Origin: Branchiostoma floridae
Taxonomy: Eukaryota > Chordata > Leptocardii > Amphioxiformes > Branchiostomatidae
NCBI RefSeq assembly: GCF_000003815.2
Contig: NC_049987.1
Span: 24,139,824 to 24,203,823 of the forward strand
Direction of reading: 5' to 3'
Length of the DNA: 64,000 nucleotides
Shown here: positions 3,490 through 33,643 of the stretch, one piece after another
Position numbering within the stretch: the stretch's first letter is position 1
How the letters are laid out: each line of letters starts with the position of its first letter
Notes under the pieces: model-generated
The model's input: the letters and a program-made list of their open reading frames with translations, nothing else
Told to the model about the DNA's origin: nothing
The model's database searches: none
Made by a program: the position numbers and the translations under genes

Positions 3490-3495
3490 ATGGCG
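3486..3495 (+). promoter_or_regulatory. YY1-like motif over the start codon of gene 1
   Basis: CAAGATGGCG overlaps the ATG. It matches the core of the YY1 consensus, which often sits at or just downstream of transcription starts in animals. The identical ten bases overlap the start of gene 2. An out-of-frame ATG lies 7 bases upstream (3,483). Function is inferred only. Confidence 0.35.
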
Positions 3496-4948
3496 AGTGC
3501 TGAAAGTAGCGACTCCAGTTCTACAGCATGGTTTGTCTATCCTGAGACGGGGCTTCGAAGGAAACTGAAGCTGAAAAATGCAACCCCGAAGAAACTAAAA
3601 CAAGCTCTCAAGCTGCCGGGGTATCCTGACCATCTTATCGACATAGAAGAGGAAGAAGCCATCTTCTTAGACGAGGATGGTAATGACAGCCTGTTCCCAG
3701 ACTTGGTGCCCGACAAAGAGTACGAAGTCCAAGTTGGAGATGTTGGTGACGTCACTGGTAAGTTAATAGTAAGGTGGAAGGTGCGTTATTTTACACTTGG
3801 TGAATATGTTGCGCATTAGATAAGAACAAGTCCATCTTGATGTAGGCACACGGGTTGAAATTAGCTGGACACTGTTGTGTATTTGACATACGCATGTCGT
3901 GTACTTATAGATGACTGTGTAAGTATGACATTGCTGTCTCAAAATATTGTCCTTGTCATATTTACACAGACCTGCCTCTGCCAATTCCGAACATAGACGG
4001 GCTGGCTTATATATATAATCAATCAATCAATCAAATAATGGTGACACCGATCACAAAATCACCATATATGGTGACTTTCATAAGTAAATTACAAAACCCA
4101 TCGGACGGAAAACGACGAACTGTGTATTCTATTCCATTCCAATCTGTTCTGTTTTGTTCCATTCCATTCATTCTGTTTAATTCATTAAATTCATTACAAT
4201 TATATTCTATTCTGCTTTATTTGGGGTTGTACCCTTCGAAGCTCACACTAGCTGTTGTGGTGGTTATACTCGTTTTATGTCAGTCAGACGTATCTTACCG
4301 ACGTTCTTACCCCTGTCTCAGTGAACACAGCTGAGAAAGTCCCTACCTCGAAACCAAAGAACCTGCGGGCAGGGGACATCCAGCGCGCGTTGGTGTGCTG
4401 TCAGGCTGTCTATGAGGAGACACCAGAAGCCGTACAGGAGTTCCTGACCACAGAACTGACGAGCCATGACTTCGGCAGTGCTTCTGTGTCCTGCTATGGG
4501 CCAGTGTCGTACATGGTGGCTGAGACTGAGGACAAGGATGAAGTCTTTATTGCCTTTAGGGGTAAGGCACTACATGTAATAATATACTAAGTACTATTTA
4601 TTATTGCGGTGTTTGTTTATGGGTACGCTCGCGCCCGTGTATGTATGCTTACTGCTGTGTGTGTCTGTGTGTGTGTGTGCGCGTGTGTGTGTGTGTGTGT
4701 GTGTGCGTGTGTGCGTGCGTGCGTGCGTGTGTCTGTGTGTGTCTATGTGTGCGTGTGTACGTGTCTCTGTGTGTGCGTGCGTGCGTGTGTGCGTATGTCT
4801 GTGCGTGTGTGTGTGTGTGTGCGTGTGTCCGTGTGTGTGTGTGCGTGTGCGTGCGTGTGTGCGTGTGTCTGTGTGTGTGTGTGCGTGTGTGCCTGCGTGT
4901 GTCAGTGTGTGCGTGTCTCTGTGTGTGGCGTGCGTGCGTGTGTGCGTA

Positions 4949-4989
<41 letters not shown>

Positions 4990-5015
4990 CGTGTGTGTGC
5001 TTGCGTGTGTGCGTG

Positions 5016-5070
<55 letters not shown>

Positions 5071-8000
5071 CATATTTAACGTTTGTATTCATCAGATATA
5101 GTCTTATGAACAACTGTTNNNNNNNNNNNNNNNNNNNNNNNNNNNNNNNNNNNNNNNNNNNNNNNNNNNNNNNNNNNNNNNNNNNNNNNNNNNNNNNNNN
5201 NNNNNNNNNNNNNNNNNNATGATACTCAGGCTAAGTAGTTGGTACACAACCCCTCAAAACAACAAACTTTCTGCTCAGAACCCTCGTAGCTATGACAACA
5301 GGCCAATGGAATTTCTAGGCCATGTTTTTAGATTTTGGACTTTCAGGGCTTTTAAGTTGGGCAAAATTTCAATTTTTTTAACCGGAAACAGTGTATTGTA
5401 TTCAGGTTTCCCGAGACCTAAACTTACAGAACATTAACTTAACTGCTATTTCATACAAGTTTGGACTTTGCTCTAATCTGCACATTCTGATTCACGTTAA
5501 AGCATGGATGCAGTGACAGTGTTCCAAAGTTGGAAAATTTCATGTTTTTTATATGTAAAAATCTGGGAAAATGGCAAAGAAACTTTTTGGGCCTGTTGCC
5601 ACAGCAATGACAGGTTCTAAGCAGAAAGAAATCTATTTTGAGGGGCTGTGTACCAAGCACTATTACTGTGCAAAACAAAATGGGCCAAATTGATTTTTGA
5701 ACGGTGCCACCATTGTTTGACCCTTGCAAAAATCCTCTCTTTTTAACATTCATCAGTTAAATACAGCATTTCTACTAACAAGACACACAATATTTTCAGG
5801 CACCGGTAAGTTAACGGACGTGATGGCCAACTGTTCCGACTGGCAGCAGCTGGCATCAAGCGGACCTGACGAAAGCCAGACTGCATTGGGAGGGCGGTGC
5901 CATGCCGGGTTTCTTAAACTGGCCTCTACCATCCCAGTCGACCCCTTCTTGCAGAAGTACCAGTCATACAGCCCTGCTGACAATGCAGAAGGGTGCCATC
6001 GCATAGTTCTGTGTGGACACAGCCTTGGTGGTGCCGTGTCGCACATCGTCGCGCTCAACATGCTGGTGGAGCTAAAGAGAAGGGAACTCCCCACCGACAA
6101 CATCATGTCCATCGCGTTCGGGGCGCCTTTCTTCGGTGACGAGGGCCTCCGTTCCTACGTGGAGGAGCAGAACCTGTCCGACTGCCTACTGACCGTGGTG
6201 AACCAGAAGGACCCTGTGCCGCGAATTCTACGATTGGCGGAAGCCGTTCAAACTGCTGTGACAACAACATCTGCTAATTATAAGGAAAGAAACTATTCTA
6301 TTAAAGTATACGTTTTCTGCATGGAAAGCTGTGACTTATTGCATACGGTATCTATATATGACGGCTGGTTCTTGTAATAACTTTTTACACGGTTTACACG
6401 AGGCAAACAATGTCTTATGACTATCGACGCGTCCTAGGACACGCGCCGCGCGTCGAACGTCGTGGGACATTTTCGCGTCGTGTAAGGCCCGATTTACACG
6501 AGGCAAAGGCCGAATTTACACGAGGCACTTTGAACGACGTAAGTCGTTTGTCCTAGGAAAGTGACCTAGGACAGTTTTCGTTTTACACACACCCTTGCGG
6601 TGCGCCGCAGCGCGTCGCGACGTGCCACAGTGCGTCGTGTTGCCATGAACTCTGGTGACCCGCCTTGACGTACGTCGTTTGATTTTTTGCCTCGTGTAAA
6701 TCGGGCCAAAAAATCAAACGACGTATGTCGTTCGACGCGCGCCGCGCGTCCTACGTCACTTTTTTTCCCGTGTAAAAGCGAAAACGACGCGCTTTGGGGC
6801 GCTGTGGCGCGACGCAGTGTGGCACCTCCAGAGGTGACTTACGACGCTCCGCGGGGAGTTTGCGGCGCCGCCCAACCTCGTGTAAACGGATCCGCGTCGC
6901 AGGTAGCCCATTTCTGCGGTGCTGTGAGCGCTCCTGGTGGTATACTCTCGCACCCAAACTGCTCGGTTGACATTTCCTTGAGCTTCAATCATAGCATCGA
7001 CAGCACAGAAGGCTGCCCGTTGAATGTCGTGGTACCGGTCCCTACAACGTACAAGCCGTCTTCTGCGCCATGCCCGGCGCTGCATGTACGCGCGAGTAGA
7101 GAAGAAAATCATCATCTGTCAGATGAACAATAACAACAGGACTTGTTCTATGATCCCGCCATTTTAAAAACGCGCGCTGTCAAATGTCGGGCGGGAACCT
7201 TCACGGCAACGCGACGCACTGTGGCGTGTCGCGACTCGCTGCGGCGCGCCGCAGGGGTGTGTGTAAAATGAAAACTGTCCTACGTCACTGTCCTAGGACA
7301 AACGACATACGTCGTTCAAAGAGCCTCGTGTAAATTGGGCCTTAGTTATTATGGTGTGATGATTACGTATTTCCAAGTATTAGATGATATCTGACATTGT
7401 CTTTGTCATTGTCACATTTCTACAGGTAAAGAAGTACGTGAAAGACGTGAAGCCGTTGCTCACCCCTATACTGGATATCATATCGTCCTCTGGGGTTGGC
7501 GGTCCTGTCATTGCGGCTGCAGATGTGCCTGCCGGCGCCATGTTGGATCATCTTCCCGCTGCCATGGATGAGCTGGACGGACTGATACGGCAACACGGCG
7601 TAACCCTACAGGAGCTGAACTCCATCTACCGGCCTGTAGGGTGGTACATGTTCATCACGTGCCAAGAGGCTCCTGGCGGTTTGCGCACAACGTGGGATGT
7701 AGGCTACATCCGAGAGGAAGGAGAGATCAACAGGTTCATATCGGACAGCGGACATCTCACTCGTGAGTACGGAAGAATCTTTGGAATATACTGTTTTACC
7801 AAGCATACGAATTCTGTTTCAGGTTGTTAATCAAGTATCCACTCTCTTGATTTCATAATTTTAACTTTTTTGTACGCATTTATTTTGCTATTGGAAAAAT
7901 TCAGCTACTTATTTGCATGCAGAGTTAGGTACGTGACTTCAAGGCCTACCTAATAATCAATGTACTAAATCCCAACATAGAAACAAACGTAGAATGGACT

Positions 8001-9191
8001 CATGCTTTTCTTTGCAAATGGAAATTTTCTCATTAGACATTTCTAGTTTCTTTCTTTTTCTTTCAGGGGAGAAGATACATGCACACAAAGCTGTGTGCTA
8101 TGCAACAGCCTTCTACAACGTGTCGACCAAGAAGGAGTACGACACAGTCCTCGCAGTTTACGATGTAGTTGACAGCTTGGCCCCCGAGATATGGAGCGCC
8201 CGGAACATCTCCATGGAAGCAGCCTTCCCTCCACGTGTCAGTAAAGTTTTTCTTGTCAGCATTGGTACGTAACTCTTATACATATGGATACGATCAATTA
8301 GGTCGGATGGTTCCAATACCATGTAGAATTGAACCATGAATATGGAATGAATCCTTCCCTTTATACTAAAGTGTTATGATTTTTAGTCATCTTTTGGATA
8401 CCTTTACATTTCTTAACCTACTCCCATCCCCAGCCTTTTCCTCTCATCAGTATCAACCTCTGTTACTCCCTCCCTACATGGTGAACAATCTTTGCATCTT
8501 CCTATTTTTGCTTCCAACGACAACATTAACAGGTAATGAGAATGTGTTGTTTCATTTTTGTCAAAGCAAGCCAGAAAGGGGACACGGATAGTGGGAAGTT
8601 GTTGGTGACCATCGACGGTGAAAACCTAGACTTCTTTGTCCCATTGAAGAACCCTTTCACAGGTAACCATCACTTAAATGTACTAGCTTCCATTTTCATG
8701 CCTGTTATCTCTGACAATGTCATAGATGTTTACTGGACGTGAACAATTGTCAGATTATGCAGGGTTGACTGTATGGGGTTTTCGTAATTTATTGTTGTGG
8801 ATAGCTATTTTCCACACATAAACAAATGAAACGGAGATGATGGTGCTGTGGAACGGCATCTTAACACTTATTTCCTCTGTGGAAAATGACCTGTTCCTCT
8901 TCATGGTTGGAACTTCACTTTATTTGATATGATTTGTTCAGGCGTTCCCTTTGACGAGACGAGGGGAGTTTCTGTGAACTTCAAAAGTTCTCGCCAAGTT
9001 GTTCTGGAGTGTTACCTTACTGATGGAGCGTTCGACCCTCTTCCCACCGTCACGGTGAGAACTCACTTTCAGGAGATCCTGTATCAGATCACGGCGGATG
9101 AATTCAAGGTAATTACATCGCCAATAACTTTATATTTTGGGTAGCGTTTGTATGTGTGTGTGAGTGTGTGTGAGTGAGTGAGTGAGTGTGC

Positions 9192-9277
<86 letters not shown>

Positions 9278-12200
9278 CCTCAGTTGCAGTCTTCAAACGG
9301 GGCTGGCTTCGCCCCGTCTCGAGACAGAAAGGGCTACCACGTAAAATTAACATTTGTTTGGCATTGTTTCCAAGAGTATTGAGATCAACTAAATGCCCAA
9401 GTATCCCGGGAAGCTTGCCAAAGAGGACTGAGCGCTGGTATGCATAGGTAGGGCACTGCAATAGGTAATGACTAATGTGTAACCGCAGCTGCAGGCGTCG
9501 TGAATTGGGACTACGGGGGAGTTGAGAACCTTAACTAAAATGGCTGAATTTGGTAGGGCGTACCAATTTGAAAAGATGTGTCCCGATTGTTCCAACTAAT
9601 GATGGAATATGGACTAAAAGACCTACCAAAGCGGTCAGTCGAAAATTTGATAGGTCTCTAATATTTCTGCTGTTTCTCAAATCGTACATTAGTACATATC
9701 CCAATAATTGCATACGGAAGTAAAGTAGTCAGATATTCACGAGTAAGTCCGGCCATTTGACGTTTTGTACCTCACAGCAAGTGAAAGGCTGCACACTGGG
9801 TCAGCTGGTTGTCGGGCGGTTGAAGCCTGAGCTGCTCATCAAGGCAACACAGCGTTGCTTGGCAACAGTGATGATGATGCCAGAATCCATCCGACAAAAG
9901 GAACTTGCAAAGAGCGCCATGATGACGTACCTGGACAAGCTGGACAAGAGCAGACGTAACGTCAGAAATGGTTAGTTCTTGAAGGAGTATTATTACGACT
10001 TCCTTATACAAAGAAATCACAAAATATAGCAAAATCAATCAATAAAAACCTGCTGTCAGGTATTTCTAAATGATTCATATCTCCTTCGAAGTGGGACCGG
10101 TAGCGCAGTGGCAGCATGTTCGCCTCGGAACCGAGAGGTCTCCGATTCGATTCCGACTGCCATGTCACCGATCTTGTGCCCTTGGGAAAGGCACTTTACA
10201 CGACTTTCCTCACTTACTCAGGTAAAAATGAGTACCTAGCTTCGGCTCGGGCCGTCCCTCGGATAGGACGTTAAATGGAGGGCCCGTGTCTGGGGAGAGC
10301 CACACCCTATGCACGTTAAAGATGGGATGCGTGCGGTGTGAGATGGCATAAATCCTTCCGTCTGGGGTTGGTGATTCACTTCAAAATCAACCGGATGGAG
10401 GCCTGGCGAACCTCTGTCTCGTACCACGGTGATTAACATCATTCACCCGGACGGGAGACCTGGCGCATCCCCATCTTGTAGTTATACAGCGAAAGGGTAT
10501 GTCAACCCGTAAGGAGCGGTATGACTCCGTCGTGTGTCAACATGTGCGAACATCTGTGATCACGTCGACCAATGATGATGATGATGATCTCTACCCTCGT
10601 TTTAATATAGGGTTAATGAGCTTTATTATTTATGGCCGATCTCAATTGCTACCGAATGAAGCTAACGATCGAAGCGAAGGATGAAGTGTCATTAATGTTA
10701 ATATCATATAAACATTATGTTAGTGTCCTTGCTTTACGTATCAATTAACTAGACGTGGCCTCTATGAGCTGAAATGTGCTGTGGCTACGTAGTGTCGCTC
10801 GTGCCAAAAGTTGTTAACGTTACATCCTCTACTCACTTATGGTTGACAATACCCTGAGAACGAAAACACTGGGGTGTTAATGACCTGGGCGAAGTGGGTA
10901 AAATGGAGCCTTCTGATTGTCTGGATCACGTGTGATAATACTTCATCTTTGTTATGTGTGTACCAAAATTGACAAAGTATTTTTTGTCAAAAACATTTCA
11001 CATATTGCCCTGTTTAGGTAACAAGAAACCAGAGCTATTCAACATGGTGGCAGATGCCTTATCTGGTGGCCTAGAGAAGCTCCAAGACGAAATGCTGCTA
11101 CCTGTGGTGGGTGAGATTGTGGCTGAAGTTGGTGACCATCTAAAGGTGACATTCCCTATGCGTTGGAGAGACTGGGTTCTGGGAAGTCTGCTAGGGCTTA
11201 CAGCCGTCGCTGGAGTGGTATTCACAGGTAAGATATTTGTAGTAAATCTAATAAATTTTTCGAAGTGTAAGTTCCCCATCTCTGATCTTTAACTGCATTT
11301 TTCTGTAATGAAAGGGGGCGTTGGTGCTGCATACATCGGAGCCATCGGTGTGACGGGAGGTGGAGCCATTGCCGGCGGCGCTGCAGGCATAATGGCTGCC
11401 GGAGCCAGTCTGTACGGCAAGGCCAAGCTGGATCAGTATTTCATTGAGGTGGAGCGTAATTACAAGGGTGTTCTCAGGTAAGAACAGCAGATTACATTCA
11501 GTAAAAAGTAGCAGCTTCATATTGGTTTCGCATTTTTTAAGATAAGGGGTTCAGTATTGGATGCGATTATTAATTAAACACAGATTTCCATACTTTATCA
11601 CAGAGCTCTGTTGGAGGAGCTTCCATTTGTTAATGATGCAAGTACTGAGAACTCGATCCACGACCAGTCACTGAGCGACGATGTGTATTGCCTGGAGTCG
11701 GCTCTTATGACCAAGTATAAGGTGAGATTAAAGCCAATGTTTCGTTAAGCTAATAGCGAAACAGCCTGAATTGCATTGTAATTTACATACATTTGTAACA
11801 TTTGAACATCAGAAAATTTGTTTTTAAAATTGACACGGTTACACAATATAATTTCGAATCAACTAATAATCTAAAAACGTTGAGTATACTAGCCTCCATA
11901 GCAGACTCTCTGTGGCCTTTTTCGGCTCCTAATACACTCTTGCTGGCAATTTCTTTTTGTATTGGGACGCTAATTTCCGGCAGTCCCTGATTACTGGCCC
12001 AGGGAAAAAGTGTATTAGGAGCCAACAAAAGGCCCCAAGGAGCCTGCTATGGAGGCTGGAGTATACAAGTATTGTTGCCAGACAACAACTTGTCTAGCAA
12101 CGATGCCTATGACGAAAAGAAACATACGTAAAAAAACATAGATTACTTTTAAAGTGTGTGCGTCTTTTAGATGCTAGGGTTTCTTGACAGCGACATCGAC

Positions 12201-14768
12201 GCCATCATAAAGACAACGCCCTTCAAGTCCAGTCGGGGAGGGAAGCTGACAAACGCGACTCTGGAATCACAATTGGATGCACTGAGACGCTGTCAGATGA
12301 CCTGTGACCTGTTCCGGATCCGTCAGCTGCTCATGAAGACTTGCTTCGTGGGTCTGATCGGTCCGCAAGACGCAGGCAAGTCAACACTCATCAAGACGCT
12401 CTGGGGAATAGACGAGCTGAAAGACATCGGGTTCCAGAAGCACACCAAAACACCCGTGCTTTACAAGGCCAGGGGCACGGAGAGGATGGTGGTAAGAGGT
12501 TTAAATCATACCGATCTGTGCGTGTGATTGACACATGTTTGTTCTGACCTGGTATTTATTATCTCCATGAAAAATGGAGTTATAAATTTTAGTTTTGGGT
12601 GTGTCTGTGTACATCTGTCTGTCTGTCTGTGTGTCTGTGTGTCCGGATTTTTGTAGTGAGCATAACTCAAGAAGCTCTAGATTGATTACGATGATATTTG
12701 GTTTGTGGGTAGGTGTTGGGAAGACAAAAGTCAATTTGGGGCCACCTGGTATGTGAAATTGGTACTGCGGCAGAAATTTCATTTTTTGGATCTTTTGAAC
12801 TGGATGTGCTACGGTCTTGATTTTTGGATGGCAGATAGCTTGTGACATAAGGGATATTTTACTTCACCTCAGGACAGTTCGTACAGTCTTCGTCGGGAAG
12901 CCCGATACAGGGCATCTAGAAGTAAAACGAAGCGACATGAGATGTCATTTGCACCCCGTTCTGTAAGATTGCTGTACGAAAGTGCTAGATGATCGGTAAA
13001 GAATGTTGATTCTGTCATGTGTATTTTCTTAATCCGATTGCTGTCTAATTTTAAATGGTGTAAATGTATTAATGTTTTAAAGTTGATTCTGTGACTGATG
13101 ACGTATTTCATGTGTATATACATGCCATTTCATCCAGGAATAAAGCTGAATCTGAATCTGAATCTGATATGTGGTGTATATTTGGTCCCCCTAGCAGGTT
13201 GCTCTGGAACTGCAGGGGCATTTTTGTCAAAATCTTCTTAGGTGGATATCTGAAGAAGGGAACGACAAATTTACATGATATTTGGTATGTAGGTAGCTTA
13301 GACAGAGATGCACATCATGAAATGCAAATCAGGTAAACTGACACTTTATTTGCATATTTAATGAGGAAAATCTGTATTTGCAGTGTTTCCTTTATAGAAC
13401 TCAAATACATGCAATATATGTAGTTTGTGGCAGGTGGAACATTATCAGATACCATTTATGCAAGTCATAACTTTGCATAATTAATGCAAAAGTGTCATAA
13501 TTTTCGATGTGGTAAATAATTGGACAATCAACACTGTAACCAGCGTAGGTTATTTACAGGTATAAATAACTAAGCATAGATTATGCAAATGTGGAAGTCA
13601 TTAACATAATCAGACTATTTCATGGAGATATGAGGTCTCCGAACTCTTGTTGGCTCTGTCTTCAACAACCATTTGAAACATTGATGTTTGTAATGTTTCT
13701 ATGCCTTTCCGTAAATAGTTTTGTTTGTAAATAGGTAGGTTAATCAATTGAACATAGTTTTCTCATATACCCTACCGTATTTGTTTCCGCTACACAAACA
13801 ATTCGACAGTCTTCTCTACTGTCTTCCTTGTTGTAAAAATGACTTTTACACTGCGTAAGCCAGCAGGGAAGATTTACTGTTGAATTGTTTGTGTCGAATT
13901 GTTTGTGTAGCGAAAACAAATACGGTAGGGTACCTCTTTTGATGCAAATATATATCAAATGCAATTATTGCATTGAAATACAGTATCCATCCATCTTGAT
14001 ATTCAGATTGTGGACTTTCCCGGCACGACCACAGTTGATACCCAGGTGGCCACGCTAGTGAACCACTGCGGCGGACTCGCCAGTTTCTTCATACTCGTCA
14101 TGCCGTTTACGAGAGATCCCAGTAAGATAAACATTGATCAACTCAACAAGGTCAAGAACTTCGGTTGTTCCTTCATCGTCTGTATCAACCAGTGTGGACG
14201 CTTCCTCGACGCTTTTAAGGTATGGCGTTATTTGTATTTGAACAATTACTTTGGCACTTTGGCATTCATTTCAATTTCTAACGACTAATCTGTTCCTTAT
14301 AGTCCCATTTCGTTCTTGTAATGAAAACAGACGTCAATCCACAGTTGTACAAATTGAGCTTTCTTCCAACACAAAGGAAACACGTTGCCTTTCCGGAAAC
14401 TGCCATGGAAGTGTGATGACGTCAGGAGTGAATCAAATACAGCATGACGATGGAATCTAACACCGTCACAGTTGTTCTTTCCCAGTCGTTTATTCACCAG
14501 TGATTTTCTTCCCTCTCAGACTAAGGAAAACACAAACAAGTACTGTGCCGACTTCTCCGAGGTACTGGAAGTGCAACCTTCTGACATCCTCTTCACCGAC
14601 TTCGTGGCCTGCACCCCGGAGATGCGCGCAATGGGGCTGGTGGGGGTGGATGACGTCAGGCGGTGGATCAAAGACTGGCTGGTGAGGTATGACGTGTTCG
14701 AGAAGGACGAGCCTGAGCTGAGTAGGGCTGTGAACGAGCAGGCAGCTGTGAAGGGTACAGATGCTTAG
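3490..14768 (+). CDS. Gene 1: lipase class 3 / transmembrane hairpin / P-loop GTPase fusion protein
   Basis: Fourteen exons give an open frame of 1,092 aa: 3490-3757, 4322-4561, 5800-6305, 7426-7762, 8067-8264, 8567-8662, 8942-9108, 9778-9970, 11018-11227, 11315-11477, 11604-11721, 12171-12491, 14007-14219, 14520-14768. Residues 1-89 form a small domain, possibly ubiquitin-like (LDEDG, then LVPDKEYEV). Residues about 95-420 are a class 3 lipase: FRGTG, nucleophile elbow GHSLGG (Ser244), [16 protein letters not shown] (Asp307), and PVGWYMFI near 408-415, which recalls plant EDS1-type lipases. Residues about 450-670 are beta-rich and unassigned. Residues about 720-772 form a Gly/Ala-rich membrane hairpin. 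Residues about 885-1092 are a GTPase with GPQDAGKST (Lys902) and DFPGT (942-946). Expected role: membrane-bound lipid hydrolysis under GTPase control (inference). Intron phases equal those of gene 2. Uncertain points: exon 2 could start at 4331, and the exon 3 donor at 6306 is weak. A normal G4 (N/TKxD) is absent. Confidence 0.85.
4640..5069. repeat. TG/CG-rich microsatellite in gene 1 intron 2
   Basis: About 420 bases of (TG)n with frequent CG and TCTG interruptions. It ends 50 bases before an assembly gap. It produces long spurious Cys/Val and His/Thr reading frames in all six frames; none is a gene. Confidence 0.97.
5119..5218. other. Assembly gap (100 N)
   Basis: Exactly 100 N, the usual placeholder for a gap of unknown size. 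It lies inside intron 2 of gene 1, next to the long TG repeat, and does not interrupt any predicted exon. Confidence 0.99.
6382..7344. mobile_element. Composite CpG-rich foldback (MITE-like) in gene 1 intron 3
   Basis: The left side (from 6,484, AAGGCCCGATTTACACGAGG) is matched in inverted orientation by the right end at about 7,180-7,344 (CCTCGTGTAAATTGGGCCTT). Arm similarity extends about 150 bases, through CTTTGAACGACGTA and TTTGTCCTAGGA to a block with GTCGCGACGTGCCACAGTG. A further end-like copy sits at 6,689-6,712, and a partial one at about 6,386-6,400, so elements of one family are nested. The interior is dense in CG dinucleotides such as CGCGCGCCGCGCG. No transposase is visible. Confidence 0.8.
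9150..9275. repeat. (TG)n microsatellite in gene 1 intron 7
   Basis: An almost pure (TG)n run of about 90 bases, preceded by TGAG repeats. It lies 40 bases downstream of the exon 7 donor. Confidence 0.97.
10093..10588 (+). mobile_element. tRNA-derived SINE in gene 1 intron 8
   Basis: The head resembles a tRNA gene promoter, with an A-box-like TAGCGCAGTGGC at 10,101 and a B-box-like GATTCGATTCC at 10,144. The conserved body piece CTTGGGAAAGGCACTTTACA follows, then about 300 bases of body and a (GAT)n tail at 10,573-10,588. The same body piece occurs in two minus-strand copies downstream of gene 4. The head does not fold into a complete tRNA, so this is a SINE rather than a tRNA gene. Confidence 0.8.
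11883..12066. mobile_element. Short MITE in gene 1 intron 11
   Basis: Terminal inverted repeats AGCCTCCATAGCAG and CTGCTATGGAGGCT lie about 150 bases apart. The arms extend inward (CTCCTAATACACT pairs with AGTGTATTAGGAG) and outward (GTATACT / AGTATAC). Non-coding. Confidence 0.8.
12559..13630. mobile_element. Interspersed repeat with ATCTCCATGA ends in gene 1 intron 12, containing a LINE tail
   Basis: The element begins ATCTCCATGAAAAATGGAG and ends TTTCATGGAGAT, inverted with respect to the start. Its left 280 bases match copies at about 23,668-23,905 and 63,577-63,885, sharing TCTGTCTGTCTGT, AACTCAAGAA and GTGTTGGGAAGAC. A second element (next entry) is nested within it. Confidence 0.7.
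12847..13172 (+). mobile_element. 3' end of a non-LTR retrotransposon (LINE) fragment
   Basis: About 320 bases of non-coding sequence end in CATCCAGGAATAAAGC and a (TGAATC)n tail at 13,147-13,168. Short tandem tails after an AATAAA-like motif are typical of CR1/L2-type LINE 3' ends. No reverse transcriptase is present; this is a 5'-truncated copy inserted in the surrounding repeat. Confidence 0.55.
13768..13932. repeat. Long hairpin in gene 1 intron 12
   Basis: Arms of about 40 bases are almost perfectly inverted. The left arm starts TACCCTACCGTATTTG and the right arm ends CAAATACGGTAGGGTA. The inner part pairs CAAACAATTCGACAG with TGTCGAATTGTTTG. The loop is about 75 bases. Likely a small MITE. 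Confidence 0.85.
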
Positions 14769-22480: not shown

Positions 22481-22689
22481 TCATTTTCCAATAGCCAGAG
22501 GGGTCAATGACCTTAAGGTCGTTGACCCTCCACTTGCAGATTGCACCTACTCTCATGTACGTTTATTTAATCTAATCAGATAGGTAACCAATCACTTAGT
22601 CTGATACTATATCCTAAAGAGAGGGGGTGGCAGCCAATCAGTGAGCCCGGCGATATCTGGAATAGTCCATTCTTACACGGAGGGGTTCA

Positions 22690-23370
22690 TTTTTTTTAAT
22701 TCATCATTGGACTGGTGAAGTCTTTCAGTGGGTGTACTTTTGGACAGGTCTATTTGGCAATTTTACAGAAAGTGTGCTGGAAGAGTCTATTCTCGCACAG
22801 AGGGGGGATTTTTAAAAATTCATTTTTGGACTTTGGTGACTACAAGTTTGTCGAAGTCTTTCAGTAGGGTTATTTTTGGACTGGTCTAATTTGCAGTTTT
22901 ACATGGGTGTGCTGGAAGAGTCCATTCTTGCATGGAGGGGGGCTTTTTTAAAAATCAATTTTTTGGACTTTAGTGATTATGTCAAAGTCCTATTTTTGCA
23001 GATGTATTTTTGGACTGCTCTACTTTACATGGAAGGGTCCGGAACTGGGTTTGCACACGGAAGGGGATTTTTCAAATTCAGGTTTGGACGGGTGATGATT
23101 CAAAATTCAATTTTTAGTGGAATGTTTTTAGACTGGTCTATTATACCTTTTCATGCACTGGGACCTTTTTTTGCTAAATTCAATTTTGGATTTGGTTTCT
23201 TATTCAAAAAGCCAAGGTTTCAGTGGGAGTATTTCTGGACTGGTCTATTGTGCAAATTCACATAGGGTGCACTGGAGTCCATTCTTGAACGGGGGAATTT
23301 TGTAAGATTCATTTTTGGGTTAAACCGTCATGAGTAAAAGTGATTTTTCAAATGGGTGATTTTGAAATAG
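22690..23370. repeat. Degenerate satellite, about 130-bp period
   Basis: Several diverged units share TTTTTGGACTGGTCTA, GTGCTGGAAGAGTCCATTCT and AGTCTTTCAGT. An open frame of 129 codons across it reflects low stop density in the repeat, not a gene. Confidence 0.65.
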
Positions 23371-23599
23371 TCTATTGTTGCATGGGGAGGGAGATGGCTG
23401 AAATATGCTGTATTTGCTCTCAAGCAAATGTCGGCCTTTCTAGTTTCCAGTTAGCTTTGTTGCATTATTTTTTTGGCATCCTTGCTTTTGGCCTTGCTTT
23501 ATATACCAGCTTCATTGTTTGAAATTGACTAGATAGAATGTAAAAATGATTCAGTCTATTTTCCAAAAGAATTTCATCTAATCTGAAGTTCTGGTAAAA

Positions 23600-23680
<81 letters not shown>

Positions 23681-23905
23681 TGTTTCCGTGTTTCCGGATA
23701 TTTCTGGTCACCACAACTTTAGAACCTCTTGATGGATTTTAATGATATTTAGTATGTAGGCAGGTGTTAGGAAGACGAATGTTAAGGTCAAATTTGGGCC
23801 TCCTGATCTGCGACCTTAGTACTGCAGCAGAACTTTTTTCGTATCTTTGTCGTGGACATGTTATGGTCTTGATTTTATTGTGGCAAATATTTTGTGATAG
23901 CAGCT
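23600..23905. repeat. (TG)n microsatellite and interspersed repeat copy
   Basis: (TG)n at 23,600-23,679 is followed by about 230 bases similar to the repeats at 12,600 and 63,600. Shared pieces include GGCAGGTGTTAGGAAGACGA and TAGTACTGCAGCAGAA. Confidence 0.75.
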
Positions 23906-24050
23906 TTTTGGATGATATTGTACTTACTAAAACGGCTTTTTGAAGAACCAATACTACCAGCAGAAGTAATAATCGATCATTGAAACAATACATTCCTTTT
24001 ATTGGCCTTTTGCATAGGTTATCATCTCCTGTCTTGGGCTTGGGGGGAAG

Positions 24051-24060
24051 CAAGATGGCG
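24051..24060 (+). promoter_or_regulatory. YY1-like motif over the start codon of gene 2
   Basis: CAAGATGGCG, identical to the same position in gene 1. Conservation could reflect the shared coding sequence (Met-Ala-Ser-Ala), so regulatory function is only a suggestion. Confidence 0.35.
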
Positions 24061-27000
24061 AGTGCTGGAAGCACCGACCCAAGTGCTACAGCATGGTTCG
24101 TCTTTCCTGGAACGGGGCTACGAAGGAGACTCATGCTGAAGGATGCAACCCCGAAGAAACTGAAAAAAGCTTTCAAGTTGCCGGGGTATCCTGAGTTCCT
24201 CGTCGACATAGAACATGACCTGGTTGTCTTCGTAGATGAGGAAGACAGCCTAATCCCAGATTTGGTGCCCAACAAAGAGTACAAAATAGAGGTTGAAGAT
24301 GTTGGTGACACCGATAGTAAGTTGGTCAGAATAAAGCTGTTTATTCCTTAGATACACCAGTGCCAGTTTCTACTCCAGCCCTATCTACATCATGATTTCT
24401 TGCTAGGGAGGCATTGATTGTGTATTGCGAGGAAAGCATATTTTTTCTTTCTTGTTTTCTTTCTTTCTTTCAATTTCTCCTGTCCTTTTCATTCGTAAGC
24501 TTTTATGGTATGAAATATTGATTCCTGAGGTAGAGATACCTTTTTTCTCACTTTCCTGTGTTACTACATGAATTACGGGTATAATTAACAGTTTCTTCCC
24601 CCTCTAGGCTGCCATAATAGTAAAGAGAGAGGGTAATTGCCACTATTATTCAGGTGGAGCAAGGTAGAGTAGGTCAGAGTTCTTCGTCATTAGCATAAGG
24701 ATATGCAAATTGAATGCATATACGTTTGTAGTAGTCAGCTGTGTTCTGCTGCTGCAGTGATCTATGTTAACGATATATGATATATGTTAACGATATGACG
24801 ATATAACGATATGTCAACATGGTTCATTCCTGACGCCTACCCTTACCCCCTAGCCTCAATATCTGCCATAGCCAATATGGTGTTCAGCAAGGGTGCATAG
24901 CAAGGGTGCACAAGGGACAATAGACCATGGGGCCTGTTGCTTGCGAATGTCGCTGACGCCGCATTGATACGCTATTGACTATCTGCTTCTCTATTTTCTA
25001 TCGTCAAACGTAATCGTTTAGGCTTGGCGCCACGCTGCTTAATCTACCCTTCAAACATTTTACCGCAGTGCCGCAACGCCTTCCTCTTCGCGCTTTATGA
25101 ATCCTTTATAGAGCTCCGGGACCCTCGGACAAGTCCAGACGAACAATAGGGGATGTCAGTTTTTTTTCTTAATCACTAAAATATTCACAGCGTCCAAGAC
25201 ATATTCAAACATGCTGCCAAAAAACAATAGGTGACGGCATAGGGTACCCGGGAATTTCCCAAATATAAAGCTTCTGTTCACGCAAAGGAAGGACAGAAGG
25301 CAAAAAAAATACTTAGGAATGTTTTGATCCAGTCATGTGAGTCAATTCGAAGCGATGTTGTATTCACAGATGGACCATCTAAGAAAGCTCCATCCTCGGC
25401 AACGCCGCCCCATCTGTCGGACGACATCCAGAGGGCCATGATGTGCTGCCAGGCTATCTACCAGGACGGACCCGAGAAGGTCGTGCAGTTTCTCAACAAA
25501 CCGGAGAACCTGTGTCTGCACAACTTCGGGGAAGTCTGCGTGTCCCGGCACGGGAGACTCACCTACATGCTGGCTGAGACGGACGATAGGGACGAGCTCT
25601 TCATAGCCTTCAGAGGTAAGAACTTAGTAGTAAAGAAGGGGCTAACTATGACATCTTCCTGGGGCCAAGAAAAAATCATCATTGATTTCATAGAAAACAT
25701 AATATACCAGAACTCTATGACCACCACTTGCGGCTGCAAATTGTAGTTATGATGCACATTAACGCATATATGATTTTTATGATAAAATTACACCTACCAA
25801 ACCTGACACAACCCCCTGCAGAAATTGGTACATCCAAACGACCGACATCGGAAAGGTGTCAATGTAATATACAGACTGAAATGTGACGAACCCAACAATA
25901 AGAACACTTACATCGGTGAGACCAACCAGCCGGTGCAAATAACATTGCAGACCTAGCACTAACGACTACTCCTTGACCATATTCCACCACATGAAGCACA
26001 ACCAGGGACACTCCTTCAATCTCCAATTCACAGACATCCTAGACCGCGAACCCGACTGGTTCGAACTTCAGAGAGGCTATATATGAGAGAACATACAATC
26101 CCAGGAAATAGGGTCTAAGTGATGAACTTTCCGGGATCTAAATCCCCCTCCCCCAACCCGCGACCATACTTTAGCTCCTGTACTCAAAAAGGAGCTAATT
26201 GACTCATTTGCATCATGCATCATTGGACTATAAAAAAACTCTCGTCATCCTTTTGCACGTCAATTCATAGGCAGGTAGAAAACCTACTCTTCTTCAACCA
26301 GTTTCCTCAGTTTTACAGACAAAAGGTAGTGGATGCTACCTGAAACGTCTGACTGTTTCCAAAATCATATCCAGACGTTTCAGTAACTGTTTTTGGCATA
26401 TCTTATTACCTTATAACTTCATCGACGAAAATTACACCTTTCCTTTTTTGAAACATCTCTCCGTAGGCACACAGAGCTACGAAGATATACTCTCGGATCT
26501 GTCCATTTGGCAAGGGTCTGGTACGAAAAGGGAGTCTTCCATGGGCGGGAAGTGTCACGCCGGCTTCCTGCAGCTGGCCTCCTGTTTTCCCGTTGATCCT
26601 ATTCTGCGTAAGTACGTGTACGGTAAGGATGGCGACAACTGCGCGCGTATTGTTGTGTGTGGGCACAGCATGGGAGGCGCTGTGGCTCACATTGTCACTC
26701 TCAACATGCTTGCCGACCTAAAGAGATGCAGTCGTGACACAGAAAAGGTCCTGTCCATCGCCGTCGGAGCGCCGTACTTTGGTGACCGCGAAATGCGCGA
26801 CTACGCAGAGAAGCACGACCTGTCGGACAACCTGCTCACCATCGTCAACCAGAACGACCCGGTGCCGCGGCTGCTGCAGTTGGCGGAGGCATTTCAATGC
26901 GCTACAAAGGCTGGAACATGGAAGGTATAGGCAAGAAAAATAGAGTTCAACGACCTCATAGCTTCGCTAAATGATGTTAACCTTTTCCCAAAATATGGAA

Positions 27001-30000
27001 GTTTTATCTGAGTAAAGAGGGTCACTGTAGCATTTATTTTTAATAATTTTGTAAACGGGACCCTGACTTGCATTTACACAAGTCAATCTAAACTCAGACT
27101 CAAAATTAACAAAATACCTCCGTTTTTACCTTCTGTTTTCTTTGTTGTAAAAATGATTCTATGATATCTCCGACAACACAACCGGGCATACTTATTTTGA
27201 CTATGCATTTTACCATGCAGGTAAAGAGGATTGTCAGGAATGCCTTGCCGACTCTAAGACTGGCTTTACAAGCGCTCTCGCTCACCGGCGTCGGAGGCCA
27301 AGTAGTTGCCGCCGCTGCTGCAGCAATCGCTATGGTGGACCAACTCCCCACATACCTTGAAGACATCAGCAAGTTGCTAGGAAGTTATGTGGAAGCTGTG
27401 GGAGACGTCCTGAAATACACCCCCCTGGGCTGGTACATGTTCATCACACACCACAGGCCTCCAGGCGCAGGGACGAATAACCAATGGCACGTGTCCTACA
27501 TGGCAACTGCAGAGGAAGTCGTCCAGGCCATGAAGGAGACCGGCGAAATGAAGTGGCCAGGTAATGTTTTCCTGGTCAGTCGAATTAAACTACAGACTCA
27601 GTTTAGCTCCCAATAATACTAGTCATGTACATCATCATTACGAAACTTAGATTCATTGAAGGCTAGTAGCTTAACCATAGTTTCTGACTCATATCTAGCC
27701 TATATGGTAGCTACCTGTACATTCTGCATATTTCAGTGGACAGGATGAACGAGCACAAGATCAGCGAATACGCAACTGTCTACCCAACGACCACAGCTCT
27801 GGGGCAGCCAACGAAGTTCGACATCGCGCTGGAGGTAGTCAGAGAGAGCCTGGAGACATCCAGCTTACAGGACAATATCAAGAAACCCCGAGAAGTTGTA
27901 CATTACAATCCTTTCGAGCTTGTCATCAGTGGTGTCAACGTGGGTAGAGTTGGTGAGTTTTCTTGCTTTTCGTGTTTTTTTTACGTTTTACTTGATTGTT
28001 ATCCCTGGGCGACCGATTTGGCTGTGTGTTGCCTGTGTACCAACCTCTGATGCCGACCTGTCGCTTGACTTTCTCGAAGGATGTATTGTGTAAACGTCGG
28101 GCTGCCAATAAATGAATCCACATACAAATAGAGGCACAAATGTAACGAGTTAGAATAATATGATACAACTAAATGTCAACCATTTGGCATTTAAGCGTAA
28201 AAAAGGCTTGTTCATATTCAACGAGGGTGTCTAACATTCATTACTAGTGGAACCGAACCTATTGTGTAGTTCAAGCTCTCAATTCTCCAGGAGTTCTGTT
28301 TTCCTGAGCGTAACATATCACCATTGCTCACAATTGTTGACTGTTGTCATTGTTAAGTTGCCTTTACATTTGGTCCCATACACCAGGTGCTGAGGGGTCA
28401 AAGAAAAGGGGAAAGAAACTCCAGATAGTCGTCACTGGGCAAAATCTTGAGTTCTTCAGTTTGCCAGAAAAGCCTTTCACAGGTAAGAGGTTGTAACTTT
28501 ACCGCAAGACAGAGTTAGCTATTTATCTCATTCTTTTAGCTCAAAAAAGTATTTCTCATGAAAAGCTTGATAATTACAAAATATGTGATAGTGATAAGTA
28601 AAACCTTGTCTCATTTTTTCGCCAACAAGGATTTTCATTCTTCTTCTGGAGAATAAATGTGATAGCAACCCCCTTATCACATTGATTCTCCAAAGAGAGA
28701 ACCAGAATTCTTCTTCTGGAGAATAAATGTGATAGCAACCCCCTTATCACATTATTTCACCAAAGAGAGAACCAGAATTCTTCTTTTGGAGAATAAATGT
28801 GATAGCAACCCCTTTATCACATTAATTCTCCAAAGTGAGAACCAGAATTCTTGGGTTGCTATCACATGTATTCTCAAGAAGAAGACTCCTGGTTCACTCT
28901 TTGGAGAATTAATGTGATAAAGGGGTTGCTATCACATTAATTCTCCAGAAGAAGATTGTAGTAACACTCATTTGGTGAATTAATGTGATATGAAAACCTA
29001 AATCCTTTATCACAACTTTTTCAGTTATCACGACTTTCATTTTAAATACTTTTCAGTGCTAAATGTAATAATCATAAGTGATCATGTGGTACTAAAAAAT
29101 GCAACAACTGTGAGCAAATACAGCGCATTTTACTCACGTCGGTAGTTATGAAAATAGGGTATTTTTTCTTCAAGGAATTCCAGCTGACATGAAGAGGGGC
29201 ATAGAGACGAAGGTCTATGCTGATGAGGTCACTCTGGAGTGTGAGCTGGAAGCGGAAGAGCTGGTCGACCCCGTACCAAAGGTTCACTTCACAACTCATT
29301 TTGAGGAAAAGGAAATATCACTCACCAGAAAGCAAGTCAAAGTAAGTAATGAAATCATTATATGTAAAGGATATCCAATCCTGAAGTATAAAGTAGAAGG
29401 TAATTGATTACTGATTACCCACTCTTTCAGCCTAATTCATACTCGAGAACTAGGGAAGATTGAGCTGTGTGTTGTATAATCTATTTCAGGAAGCCAAAGG
29501 CCTGACCATTTCCGAGTGTGTTGTCAACGACCTCAGCCCAGTCCAGCTGGTCAAAGCCATTGAACGAAGTTTGTCCAACATCTTACTGGCAGCAGACCGA
29601 AAGAAAGCGACGGAGTCGGATGGTCTATTGAAGTTCCTCATTCGTCTGGATGAACAACGCAAATCGGTGAAGGAAGGTCAGTAAACGCTAATCTAATCCT
29701 AGCAAAGGTGCCTATGGTTATCAAGATTCATCCCAAGAACCTTATTTACAGCATTAAATTAAAAACGATTTCTACTATCAAACTTCTCTCAAGACCATCA
29801 AAATTTGAAATACGTTTGGAACAATAAGCAAAATACCACTAGCTGTCTGTGATAGTAAACTGTCTCCCTTTAACCACTTTGTTTTGTTCGGTCGTAGGTA
29901 AAGACAATGTAAAGCTGAAGAAAATGATTGACGAGTCAGAGAGTTTAGACGATCTGATGCAGGACAAAGATTTGCTCCGAGTAGTTGTGGAAATCTTGGC

Positions 30001-33000
30001 AGAATTTGGTCAATACTTGAAGGTCGAGTACCCGTTCAGTCCGGCACACTGGCTAATGGCTTCGTTCATGGGGCTGGTGACCATTGCGGGTATTGTGGCA
30101 ACAGGTATGTATATATATGGCCATCCTATCATTTCTAGAATGTGGTGTTCTGAAGAATGTCAGGTTCTCTTCTATTATCTTGTGGTTTTACTATTCCTGT
30201 ACACTGTGAGTCACTCGTGTCGCCGCCAACTTGCGCTTTAAGTGTTCTTTTGGTTATACTGAACCTTTGATTCGCCTGTCCTTAGCACATAGTTAAATAA
30301 CCAAGCTGCAAGGGTGCCTAAACCACATTTCTCTCACATGAAGGTGGAGGTGCTGCCATATTCTTTGGAGCGATCGCCTTGAGTAGCGGGGCAGCAATCG
30401 TAATTGGGGCTGGAGGCGCCACTGCTGCCATCGCCAGTTTAGGCTTGAATGTCTGGTACCACAGGCTGTTCAGGGACTATGAGAAGAACTACAAAGCTAT
30501 TCTGAAGTAAGACACTCCTCTTTGCTTGTCTTTAATCTCAAAGGTAGTAATCACAGTCAATGTTTTTGGCAGTTTTGTTAAGTATTTAATTGAATAATTA
30601 TTTGTGAAATCATGTTTGACATTGTCCTAGCTTCAGTGGAGATCAGTAGATGTTTTAATTTACATGATTTGATATTTTCAAGAACATATATGATTTTTAT
30701 CAGCTTACCGACCAACAAAAATCAATCTTCTTGCTTTTAAGCAAGAAAATACTTAAAAGTCGTCCAACCCATTTATATATGAAAATGTTGGACAATTCAT
30801 CCTCTATTGCATACGGAAAAAGAAGTCAAACCCATCAAATAGCTTAAGTAGAAATTGATTTAGTTTAGACGTTATTCCCTTTTGATTTATCTATGATTAT
30901 CATTTCCATTGTTAATTATGTTTATGTATACCACTACTACTTTACTTTGTATGCAATTAGCCCTTGCAATAAAGATATATATGTCACAGTAGAGATGTCG
31001 ATCCAGTAGAATCGTCGATTCTCCTATCAGAGATCTCGATCGGAGCTGGTCCTAGGGCCAGCTCCGATCGGAGTCTCTCCTAGGAGAATCGACGATTCTA
31101 CTAGTATAGATTGCGATCGGGGTCTCTCCCAGGAGAATAGACGATTCTACTAGGAGAGACCCCGATCGGAGTTGGCCCTAGGACCAGCTCCGATCCAAAC
31201 TCAAAGGATACTAAGATATAGGAAACAAGCCATACTTTTTTGATAAAGAATGATTTTATTTAGTATTAATGCAGTATTAGGCTTGTGTGTAGTTGTTAAT
31301 GAGTTAGTAGGTTTGCATTAATACTAAATAAAATCATTGTTTATCAAAAAAAGTATTGCTGTTTCCCATATCTTAGTATCATTTGAGTTTGGATCGGAGT
31401 TGACCCTAGGAGAGACCCCGATCGCAATCTATACTAGTAGAATCGTCGATTTTCCTAGGAGAGACCCCAATCGGAGCTGGCCCTAGGACCAGCTCCGATC
31501 GAGATCTCTCCTAGGAGAATCGACGATTCTACTGGATCGACATCTCTACTGTGACATATATATATATATATATAAAAAATCAGAGGATGGAGTAGTGTTA
31601 ACATACCCTTTGCTAGGTGAAACATTATGGTAAGACATTGTCATATTGTCAAAACTTTAGGATGCTGATTAAGGAGTTACCTGAGCCACAGAGTCAGAGG
31701 AAAGGTGGCGCTAATGCCGATGACGGAACATTGTACGGCTTGGAACGCGCCCTTTACACCAAGTACGAGGTCAGACATATTTTACTCATATATGCGTGCC
31801 AACAAAGGTCTTTCCATTCTATTGACTTCAATTTTGAATGAAATGCTGATGGCACAATCCCCGATTTTTATCTGTATCCCACGGCCTCTGGTCATCGCCA
31901 TCTCCGGAAAATAACCGAAACAAAATGATGAGAGAAATATTTTAGGTAGAAAATTACAAAAAAACATGAGTGCAAGATTCATCATCATGACATAGAATTA
32001 TGTTTGCCTCTTCAATGGAGCTATCCTATGCTGTTTGCGCACTTTGATGAACTTGTCTGTATAATAATCAAAATGTAAACAATATTCTGTTACCCTTCAA
32101 TCGATTAGGATGCAAGCCATAGAACGTCTTGCCCATGGAAAATATGATGATGATCGTAACCTGTAGAGGACAATCATACAAGAATATTTCTTAAAACACC
32201 CTGATACTTTCCAACCTAGGGCCTCGGTTATCTCAACAGACCTGTTGATGAAGTTATGGATAAGAAGCCCTTTGAAGACTCCCCTAAGCTGCAAAATGCT
32301 AAAGAAGAGTCCCAGAAGGAAGCTCTCCGACGCTGCCAGATGGCTTGTGACCTGTTTGCCATTCGCCAGTTGCTGCAGAAGTCCTGCTTCGTCGGATTAT
32401 TTGGACCGCAGAATGCTGGTAAATCCACGCTCATCGAAAAGACCTGGGGTGTGTCTGTGAAGGAGAGGGGGTTCAAGACCCACACCTCGGCTCCAGACCT
32501 GTACAAGGCGAAGGGGACGGAAAGAATGGTGGTAAGTGTTGGGGACGACATTTATGTGGAAGCCTGAACGTGTTCTAGATGAAAAATTACACTTTTATTA
32601 CCTTGTTCTTATTATCTTGTACACAACCAGGATGTACTCACTGTGCAGAACTCCAGTCAGAAGCTCTGAGGAAGGTGTCTGATAGACACCGAAACGGAAG
32701 CACAGCAAGTACATCCTGGTTGTGGACATTAATTCTGCTATATCCTCTTATATCATACGTTTCATTACCGTTTTTAATTAAACCTGTCCGGCTTCTTTAA
32801 GATCATAGACTTTCCGGGCACCACTACAATCGACGATCAAGTTGCTAACCTGGCTAACAACTGCGGGGGGCTGTCTAGCATCCTCATCCTCGTCATGCCG
32901 TTCCAAGGAGACACCAGCACGGACCACGTCACACAGCTGGAGAAAGCTAACAAGCTGGTAGAAGATTTCGACTGTTCTATTCTCCTGTGCATCAGCCAAT

Positions 33001-33643
33001 GCGGTCGTTTCAAGGACATATTGAAGGTGCGCCCGAAAACATTCTTCTACCTACAATTTATCAGCGTGAGAGATGTGCTAAGCTGTACGTCCATTGTTTC
33101 TGATTGAAGCTTGTCAGCTAGAAACCAATGATACTCACTTTTTATAGTTGCTCAAGAAATAATCTATATCTTTTTTTCTCAGGAATGTTCAAAACACGTT
33201 CAATAATGATCACTCAAAGCATACTGAAGTCCATGCATCATAACAACAATCTCAAGCTCTGAGTCATGATCTATATATATATGATGACATTTGACACAAC
33301 ATCTATTACTTCATGATGATCTATTTATTAGTAGCTCATTTTTATAACTATGCAAAACGATCATGCCTTCGATATTGTTTCTTATTGTTGTTGTTGTTGT
33401 TTTTGTTGTGTTCAGGACAAGGAAACTGTGGATGTCTTCAGGGAGGACTACACAAAACACCTGAAGATCGACGCCGCCAACATCCTCTTCACGGAGCTTG
33501 TGGAGACCGAGGCCATGGAGAGCAGGGGCGTGGTCGGGGCAGATGGGGTGAGGACGTGGTTGAAAGATTGGCTGATTAAATATGATGTGTTTGAAAACAA
33601 TGTTGATGAGCTCTACGCAGCTGTTAACATGAGCAGGGAGTGA
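24055..33643 (+). CDS. Gene 2: lipase class 3 / transmembrane hairpin / P-loop GTPase fusion protein
   Basis: Paralogue of gene 1 with the same 14 exons and intron phases, 1,071 aa: 24055-24316, 25370-25615, 26467-26924, 27221-27560, 27737-27952, 28387-28482, 29175-29341, 29490-29676, 29898-30104, 30344-30506, 31661-31769, 32220-32531, 32802-33026, 33416-33643. Exons 6, 7 and 10 have exactly the gene 1 lengths (96, 167, 163). The lipase part shows FRGT, GHSMGG (Ser237), VGAPYFGD, NQNDPVPR (Asp300) and PLGWYMFITHH (His399/His400 are candidates for a catalytic histidine). A two-helix hydrophobic hairpin spans about 709-760. The GTPase shows GPQNAGKST (Lys885), DFPGT (924-928) and ISQCGRF where the N/TKxD motif is expected. 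All 14 exons are open and the splice sites are good, so the copy looks functional. Substrate and role are not known from sequence. Confidence 0.88.
25780..26400 (+). mobile_element. Penelope-like retroelement remnant in gene 2 intron 2
   Basis: A broken frame from about 25,858 reads NVIYRLKCDEPNNKNTYIGE, resembling the start of a GIY-YIG endonuclease domain. Downstream fragments include HHMKHNQGHSF and ILDREPDWFE, which fit the same C-terminal region. It ends with a non-coding tail containing CCTGAAACGTCTGAC. Stops and frameshifts show that it is dead. Similar tail pieces occur near 47,560 and 62,970. Confidence 0.6.
28636..28956. repeat. Direct-and-inverted repeat array in gene 2 intron 6
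   Basis: Three direct copies of a unit of about 72 bp are followed by two inverted half-copies. Each unit is itself an inverted repeat: GGAGAATAAATGTGATA, a short AACCCCC loop, then TTATCACATTGATTCTCC. Strong cruciform or hairpin potential. No coding content. Confidence 0.85.
30975..31565. mobile_element. Near-perfect 590-bp palindrome (foldback element) in gene 2 intron 10
   Basis: Arms of about 270-280 bases are inverted copies. The left starts ATATGTCACAGTAGAGATGT and the right ends ACATCTCTACTGTGACATAT. Shorter palindromes such as CTAGGGCCAGCTCCGATCGG are nested within each arm. The left arm has about 50 extra bases. The centre pairs ATTTTATTTAGTATTAATGC with its inverse. It is flanked by TA-rich sequence, consistent with insertion into a TA repeat. 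No transposase. Confidence 0.9.
32618..32722. repeat. Small hairpin in gene 2 intron 12
   Basis: ACAACCAGGATGTACT near 32,624 is inverted as AGTACATCCTGGTTGT near 32,708. The middle contains GTCTGATAGACACCGAAACG, a short piece also found near 39,014 in gene 3 intron 4. Confidence 0.7.

Follow-up and report, generated by a model that had tools for sequence, protein, structure and literature searches.

Does the genome of Branchiostoma floridae encode a protein in which a lipase and a GTPase are joined in one polypeptide? The question is raised by a stretch of 64,000 nucleotides (assembly GCF_000003815.2, contig NC_049987.1, positions 24,139,824 to 24,203,823; hereafter the window), in which a first-pass annotation had noticed two paralogous genes, here called A and B, and had read each of them as a fusion of a class 3 lipase, a two-helix membrane segment and a P-loop GTPase. 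By our analysis the fusion appears to be genuine and to represent a conserved family of genes. The number of two genes was an understatement, as A and B stand but the genome holds at least nine genes of this kind. What the single domains may do, and how they might work together, is less easily answered and is discussed below.

Both genes lie on the forward strand, as do all features of A and B given here. Gene A (3490..14768) has 14 exons (stop codon included: 3490-3757, 4322-4561, 5800-6305, 7426-7762, 8067-8264, 8567-8662, 8942-9108, 9778-9970, 11018-11227, 11315-11477, 11604-11721, 12171-12491, 14007-14219 and 14520-14768), which are spliced to an open frame of 1092 amino acids. Gene B (24055..33643) likewise has 14 exons (24055-24316, 25370-25615, 26467-26924, 27221-27560, 27737-27952, 28387-28482, 29175-29341, 29490-29676, 29898-30104, 30344-30506, 31661-31769, 32220-32531, 32802-33026 and 33416-33643, again with the stop codon) and a spliced translation of 1071 amino acids. 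Neither model has an internal stop, all 26 introns are of the GT-AG type, and the 13 intron phases are the same in A and B (1,1,0,1,1,1,0,1,1,2,0,0,0). The rebuilt models thus bear out the exon structure claimed before and the single frame per gene with a lipase, a Gly/Ala-rich hydrophobic segment and a GTPase-like domain; the motifs quoted in the first-pass annotation are all present, and in a Pfam search Lipase_3 and MMR_HSR1 were both above their cut-offs in A and in B. As the splice sites of A and B were picked by eye while the two copies were being compared, their agreement alone is not blind, and in gene A the 3' end of exon 3 may be off by about nine codons. At the protein level A and B are 46% identical. 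Their dN/dS is 0.27, a rough value because dS is near saturation; by domain it amounts to 0.53 for exon 1, 0.46 for the hydrophobic segment and 0.25 for the lipase.

Some further observations concern the noncoding parts. Repeated and palindromic blocks lie within gene B, in intron 6 (28620-28960 of the window) and in intron 10 (31000-31560), and are perhaps remnants of mobile elements. An Rfam scan of the window at gathering scores gave no match, and RNA folding of the terminal part of gene A revealed nothing.

We searched the assembly from which the window is taken (513,431,437 bases in 431 contigs); all counts from this search are lower bounds. Gene B as a query gave 48 exon-level matches. 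The GTPase part gave 27 matches at E<=0.01, scores being computed for the best candidates only, and all 27 fall inside nine fusion genes. Exon-by-exon mapping located these genes, at least nine in number, at three genomic places. Seven of them, namely c1 to c5 together with A and B, form a cluster of 154 kb (contig C9:24019648-24173466), and two copies are dispersed, c9b on the same contig (C9:3024479-3036958) and c8 on another (C8:10430442-10459914). All nine can be spliced into 14 exons with equal phases and no internal stop. The donors are GT at 115 and GC at 2 of the 117 sites and the acceptors AG at 117 of 117, with the reservation that the splicing script sought sites in the expected phase and that some ends were set by hand. 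Both GC donors (c8 exon 10 and c9b exon 5) are hand-set, and the other copies have GT at these places. For this reason the seven other copies were also checked without hand choices. Here homology located 97 of 98 exons. AG stood precisely where the acceptor was predicted in 86 of 90 cases, and shifts of up to 10 bases never gave more than 21; for GT and the predicted donor the figures are 78 of 90 and no more than 31. Tandem copies are not mutually independent.

The copies fall into two clades, A with c1 to c5 (78-94% mutual identity) and B with c9b and c8 (59-65%), and the identity between the clades is 40-46%. For the 11 pairs computed, whole-gene dN/dS ranges from 0.24 to 0.37, and the family is under purifying selection. 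Beyond copy c3 an isolated fragment resembling the end of exon 14 was observed (C9:24083646-24083727), possibly the remnant of a further copy.

The lipase region of gene A is encoded by exons 2-5 (4322..8264, residues about 105-470), with the Lipase_3 match at residues 165-312. Lipase_3 scores 68.2 bits in A and 74.4 bits in B (cut-off 22) and matches 6/6 copies given. In gene A the presumed nucleophile is Ser244 in GHSLGG (6021..6023), the presumed acid of the triad Asp307 in NQKDPVPR (6210..6212) and the presumed histidine His457 in IHAHKAVCY (8084..8086). By alignment the corresponding residues of gene B are the serine of GHSMGG (26667..26669), the aspartate of NQNDPVPR (26856..26858) and the histidine of MNEHKISEY (27754..27756). 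The serine in GHS(L/M)GG, the aspartate in DPVPR and the later histidine are conserved in all nine copies, as is the motif Y(R/T)PxG(W/R)YM. In gene A this YRPxGxY-type motif (7627..7653) is aligned to plant EDS1 in the PDB search, and the histidine owes its supposed catalytic role to its position after the motif.

The first-pass annotation had drawn a loose parallel to the EDS1-type immune proteins of plants. A PDB search with a six-copy profile gave as best matches EDS1 (E 1.3e-9) and PAD4 (1.9e-8) of entry 8zf0, followed by lipases at 5e-8 and weaker, which the search names as lipases and which we take to be fungal; with a two-sequence profile the values were 2.7e-7 for PAD4, 6.2e-7 for EDS1 and 2.8e-5 for the fungal lipases. 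The alignment with EDS1 of 8zf0 covers profile positions 116-297 and passes through a long insert to the YRPCGTYLF of EDS1. The tie is weakened by the small margin of 8zf0 over the fungal lipases, and other entries, EDS1 at 2.9e-6, 0.003 and 0.017-0.018 and SAG101 at 0.023, rank below the best of these. The EDS1 family is described (PMC8813719) as confined to seed plants and as combining a lipase-like domain with an EP domain. No EP-type Pfam match was obtained at E<=1 with full-length A and B or at E<=5 with two pieces of the middle region. Pfam presumably holds an EP model, and we rejected membership in the EDS1 family on this result while keeping the likeness of the lipase domain. For the lipase domain the parallel thus has some support from sequence: judged by these alignments, this domain is EDS1-like, while the protein is no member of the EDS1 family.

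A genome-wide Lipase_3 scan returned 14 matches, all above the cut-off, which comprise the nine fusion genes, three genes on contig C4 and two short exons. The lipase exons of the fusion kind are above the cut-off in 12/12 genes. The short exons, on contigs C19 and C13, carry GHSLGAGTA and are the sole other Lipase_3 matches in the genome; presumably they belong to animal DAGL (diacylglycerol lipases). The three C4 genes (at 29.26, 29.64 and 29.67 Mb) have lipase exons 2-4, with exons 3 and 4 in a single frame, and are 41-42% identical to B. The 5 kb downstream of two of the three contain in each case a sequence resembling exon 7 (E 1.7e-7 and 6.9e-4) and one weakly resembling exon 6 (E 0.013 and 0.021), and a GTPase was not found in these 5 kb. 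As the distance between lipase and GTPase reaches about 18 kb in the nine fusion genes, 5 kb is short, and stronger evidence comes from the genome-wide GTPase search, which gave no match on C4. Lipase and GTPase are accordingly found together in nine of the twelve genes. The C4 genes possibly represent an older state free of the GTPase, or a loss.

The C-terminal domain is encoded by exons 12-14 (12171..14768 in A, 32220..33643 in B). Pfam MMR_HSR1 scores 26.9 bits in A and 29.8 bits in B (cut-off 21.9). For Dynamin_N (cut-off 27) the score is 28.0 with full-length B, 23.1 with full-length A and 28.5 with the isolated domain of A, and each of the two models matches the six GTPase domains given. 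To call the domain dynamin-like is therefore borderline, since full-length B passes the cut-off but full-length A does not. The G1 motif or P-loop (GPQDAGKST at 12360..12386 in A, GPQNAGKST at 32403..32429 in B) is present in all nine copies, and the G3 motif (14013..14027 in A, 32808..32822 in B) is DFPGT in eight of them and DFHGT in one. The G4 motif NKxD is replaced by (N/S)(Q/H)CG in all nine, the position being set by alignment of CISQCG to the VNKCD of mitochondrial IF-2 (NQCG at 14187..14198 in A, SQCG at 32994..33005 in B). With NKxD lost, the term GTPase is to be used with caution, and a specificity for guanine appears doubtful, a point absent from the first-pass annotation.

Regarding the subfamily, the PADLOC models of LeoA and LeoBC, which we take to be bacterial dynamin-like proteins, match 6/6 domains (best E 1.9e-6 and 2.4e-5), in the A domain with only the stretch from the P-loop to G3. 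Among the best 60 of 77 matches of a PDB search were EttA, mitochondrial IF-2, Era, FeoB and ABC ATPases, with E values no better than 1e-4, and an IRG protein at E 0.33. The NCBIfam models of Era and Obg match B far below their own cut-offs. The label IRG-like given to the domain before had to be dropped, as Pfam IIGP matched one of six members, with E 0.051 and a score of 13.1 bits where the cut-off is 24. On the profile matches the domain is of the TRAFAC type and falls between MMR_HSR1 and dynamin.

Between the lipase and the GTPase-like domain lies a middle region without a Pfam family (exons 5-8, 8067..9970 in gene A). Its DNA identity between A and B (42-50%) is among the lowest of the gene, and by sequence comparison it is a fast-diverging region. 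It is followed in exons 9-10 by the Gly/Ala-rich hydrophobic segment, which spans residues 726-764 in A (11018..11477; hydropathy peaks of 1.83 and 1.44) and residues 710-747 in B (29898..30506; peaks of 1.75 and 2.08). Hydropathy was computed in a 19-residue window with a threshold of 1.4 chosen by us. The segment is a possible membrane hairpin in A and B. Before residue 215 no peak reaches 1.4 in any of the nine copies, which argues against a signal peptide. In c9b exon 10 (C9:3026341-3026863) is 523 bases or about 174 codons long; it contains an in-frame tandem repeat of 36 bases in 8.4 copies, which adds Gly/Ala units to the hydrophobic segment.

Exon 1 (3490..3757 in A, 24055..24316 in B) encodes an N-terminal domain of about 75-89 amino acids without an assigned family. 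A and B agree in 80% of its bases, compared with 42-63% in exons 2-14, whereas A agrees with c4 and c5 in 51-53% of them, compared with 68-93% elsewhere. This pattern suggests that exon 1 was probably exchanged or converted between copies, an exchange or gene conversion that would be restricted to the N-terminal domain. Of three exon-1 proteins tested, none matched a Pfam family at E<=5. In a PDB profile search the sole match below 0.05 was to repeats of a protein called H10, no single stretch of which was significant, besides weak fibronectin-type and other matches. An impression by eye that exon 1 is CIDE-N- or ubiquitin-like was given up, as neither search lent it support.

How could such a protein work? 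In our reading, to which we assign a probability of about one half, A and B, as two of the at least nine genes, would encode a cytosolic membrane-associated protein in which a nucleotide-dependent assembly at the C terminus positions or switches the N-terminal lipase. From N to C terminus it would consist of the small N-terminal domain, the class 3 lipase, the fast-diverging middle, the Gly/Ala-rich hydrophobic segment and a TRAFAC domain of the dynamin/Era type. Both folded ends would lie on the cytosolic face, because the first 200 residues have no hydrophobic stretch and the later segment is hairpin-like. We infer that the C-terminal domain would self-assemble on the membrane depending on the nucleotide, that this assembly would gather and switch the lipase, and that the lipase would then cleave acyl chains from glycerolipids of the same membrane. 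As a guess, the tandem expansion and the exchange of exon 1 would be in keeping with host defence or with recognition of some other sort, and an immune role is possible. A more far-reaching version would be an animal protein family with an EDS1-type lipase module, known otherwise from the immunity of seed plants, permanently joined to a membrane hairpin and to a dynamin-like nucleotide switch of changed base specificity. This would form a single-chain membrane lipase under control of the switch, employed in cell-autonomous defence, and its N-terminal exon would serve recognition and be exchangeable; this we put forward as a speculation that is unlikely as a whole.

Several observations weigh against our reading. 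The loss of NKxD in 9/9 copies means that GTP binding is not assured and that the domain may bind or hydrolyse GTP in an altered manner or not at all. The two-helix membrane segment of the first-pass annotation is not secure: exons 9-10 give two hydropathy peaks in six of the nine copies and one peak in the other three, part of the GTPase domain reaches equally high values (1.46-1.74) in all nine, and lipase-region stretches pass 1.4 in several copies as well, so that the threshold is not specific. Other P-loop families of PADLOC also match the domains, mad8 6/6 and AriA 5/6, and the likeness to LeoA may thus be mostly that of the P-loop. The three relatives on C4 have the lipase part with a GTPase undetected, and a lipase of this type therefore need not be accompanied by the GTPase. 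Finally, the proteins of the EDS1 family retain S-D-H and are nevertheless reported (PMC8813719) to be without enzymatic activity; the triad is thus no proof of a lipase.

The last point leads to the main rival explanation, according to which the lipase domain would be a pseudo-enzyme serving as a scaffold or ligand-binding module, as in EDS1, and the GTPase-like domain would switch signalling complexes. The retained but reportedly inactive residues of the plant family and the rank of EDS1 and PAD4 of 8zf0 as best PDB matches speak for such a scaffold, whereas no EP domain was found in the Pfam searches of A and B, and the conservation of Ser, Asp and His in 9/9 copies, across an A/B distance with dS near saturation, fits catalysis, even though EDS1 shows that it is no proof. 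We consider the scaffold rather unlikely, if the strongest of the competitors. It is also conceivable, with a still smaller chance, that the proteins carry out a constitutive or housekeeping remodelling of lipids in which the dynamin-like domain shapes or targets membranes, for instance at organelle contacts, without any part in immunity. Tandem clusters and exon exchange are more usual in defence or recognition gene families, and the cluster of seven copies and the exchange of exon 1 therefore speak against a housekeeping function. The whole-gene dN/dS values given above, on the other hand, agree with it, as they give no whole-gene sign of positive selection. It also has a precedent in ABHD16A, a lipid hydrolase that, according to PMC9725753, recruits the mitochondrial fission and fusion machinery, there with separate proteins.

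All these explanations presuppose that lipase and GTPase belong to one gene. In favour of the alternative, that neighbouring lipase and GTPase genes have been read as one, AATAAA does occur between exons 5 and 12 in eight of the nine copies (0.26-1.41 per kb; 0 in c5). Such a mistaken join would have to explain, however, why lipase and GTPase exons occur in the same order and on the same strand with homologous splice sites in nine of nine genes at three places, and why 27/27 genomic GTPase matches (at the E value and with the scoring named above) lie inside these genes. The first-pass annotation had called an artefactual join very unlikely from the two copies in the window; the nine copies agree with this judgement, and we rejected the join on their evidence as very unlikely indeed.

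We then return to the fusion as the preferred reading and to its relatives elsewhere. The scans of viral, prokaryotic and phage sequences used a few short peptide patterns or one query of 81 residues and were not exhaustive. Within this scope, three scans of viral contigs gave no relatives, the phage records no match and the GTPase profile none in prokaryote genomes. The lipase core was found at three prokaryotic loci, one of which is by eye an ordinary alpha/beta hydrolase. The two others are Pseudomonas frames of 747 amino acids (L052 4783-7023 and L053 3124-5364), whose class 3 lipase core is 41-42% identical to that of gene B; no GTPase partner was seen beside them. Among frames of at least 150 amino acids at the three loci GxxxxGK(S/T) occurs once, as GLNLRGKT at the end of L052, which is taken for chance. 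The same domain order was thus not met in these scans; among eukaryotes the search comprised the window's own genome and gave the nine genes. In the open-access literature we found no paper on the order lipase, hydrophobic segment and GTPase, and lipase, EDS1 and dynamin are unmentioned in the main text of PMC8195603. Each domain by itself is known and their combination is without a paper found in that literature; it may nonetheless be annotated in other eukaryotes.

Elsewhere in the window, in the regions of about 36905-50360 and 57253-57675, there are repeated frames with hydrophobic stretches (36905-37291 and 45910-46707, with a similar one at 57253-57675). By eye they look like putative UNC93-like transporters in tandem.

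Should the protein act as a single machine, lipid hydrolysis and dynamin-type membrane action would be linked physically and directly; in the precedent of ABHD16A (PMC9725753) the link is one between separate proteins. Moreover, as a chordate has here a lipase domain that resembles EDS1 and retains Ser, Asp and His, the question of hydrolysis could be addressed without the EP domain and without plant partners.

Compared with known systems, the fusion shares with EDS1, PAD4 and SAG101 a domain of the class 3 lipase type and the long stretch between the aspartate and YRPxGxYxF; it differs from them by the added hydrophobic segment and GTPase-like domain and by the EP domain, which was not found. 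With fungal and other class 3 lipases it has in common the Lipase_3 domain with GHSLGG and the PDB matches from 5e-8, but these matches stop at or before the DPVPR stretch, and the chains of about 270-360 residues leave no room for a GTPase domain. The DAGL-like exons are also of the Lipase_3 type, carry GHSLGAG where the fusion has GHSxGGA, and are short exons only. The dynamin superfamily, including LeoA and LeoBC, resembles the C-terminal domain in the P-loop and the DFPGT-type G3, and the Dynamin_N, LeoA and LeoBC models match 6/6 domains; in the fusion, however, G4 is degenerate, Pfam gives no stalk domain and full-length A stays below the Dynamin_N cut-off. The likeness to Era, FeoB and other MMR_HSR1 proteins consists in A and B lying above the cut-off of this model, whereas the fusion has lost the NKxD of G4 and is a multidomain protein joined to a lipase.

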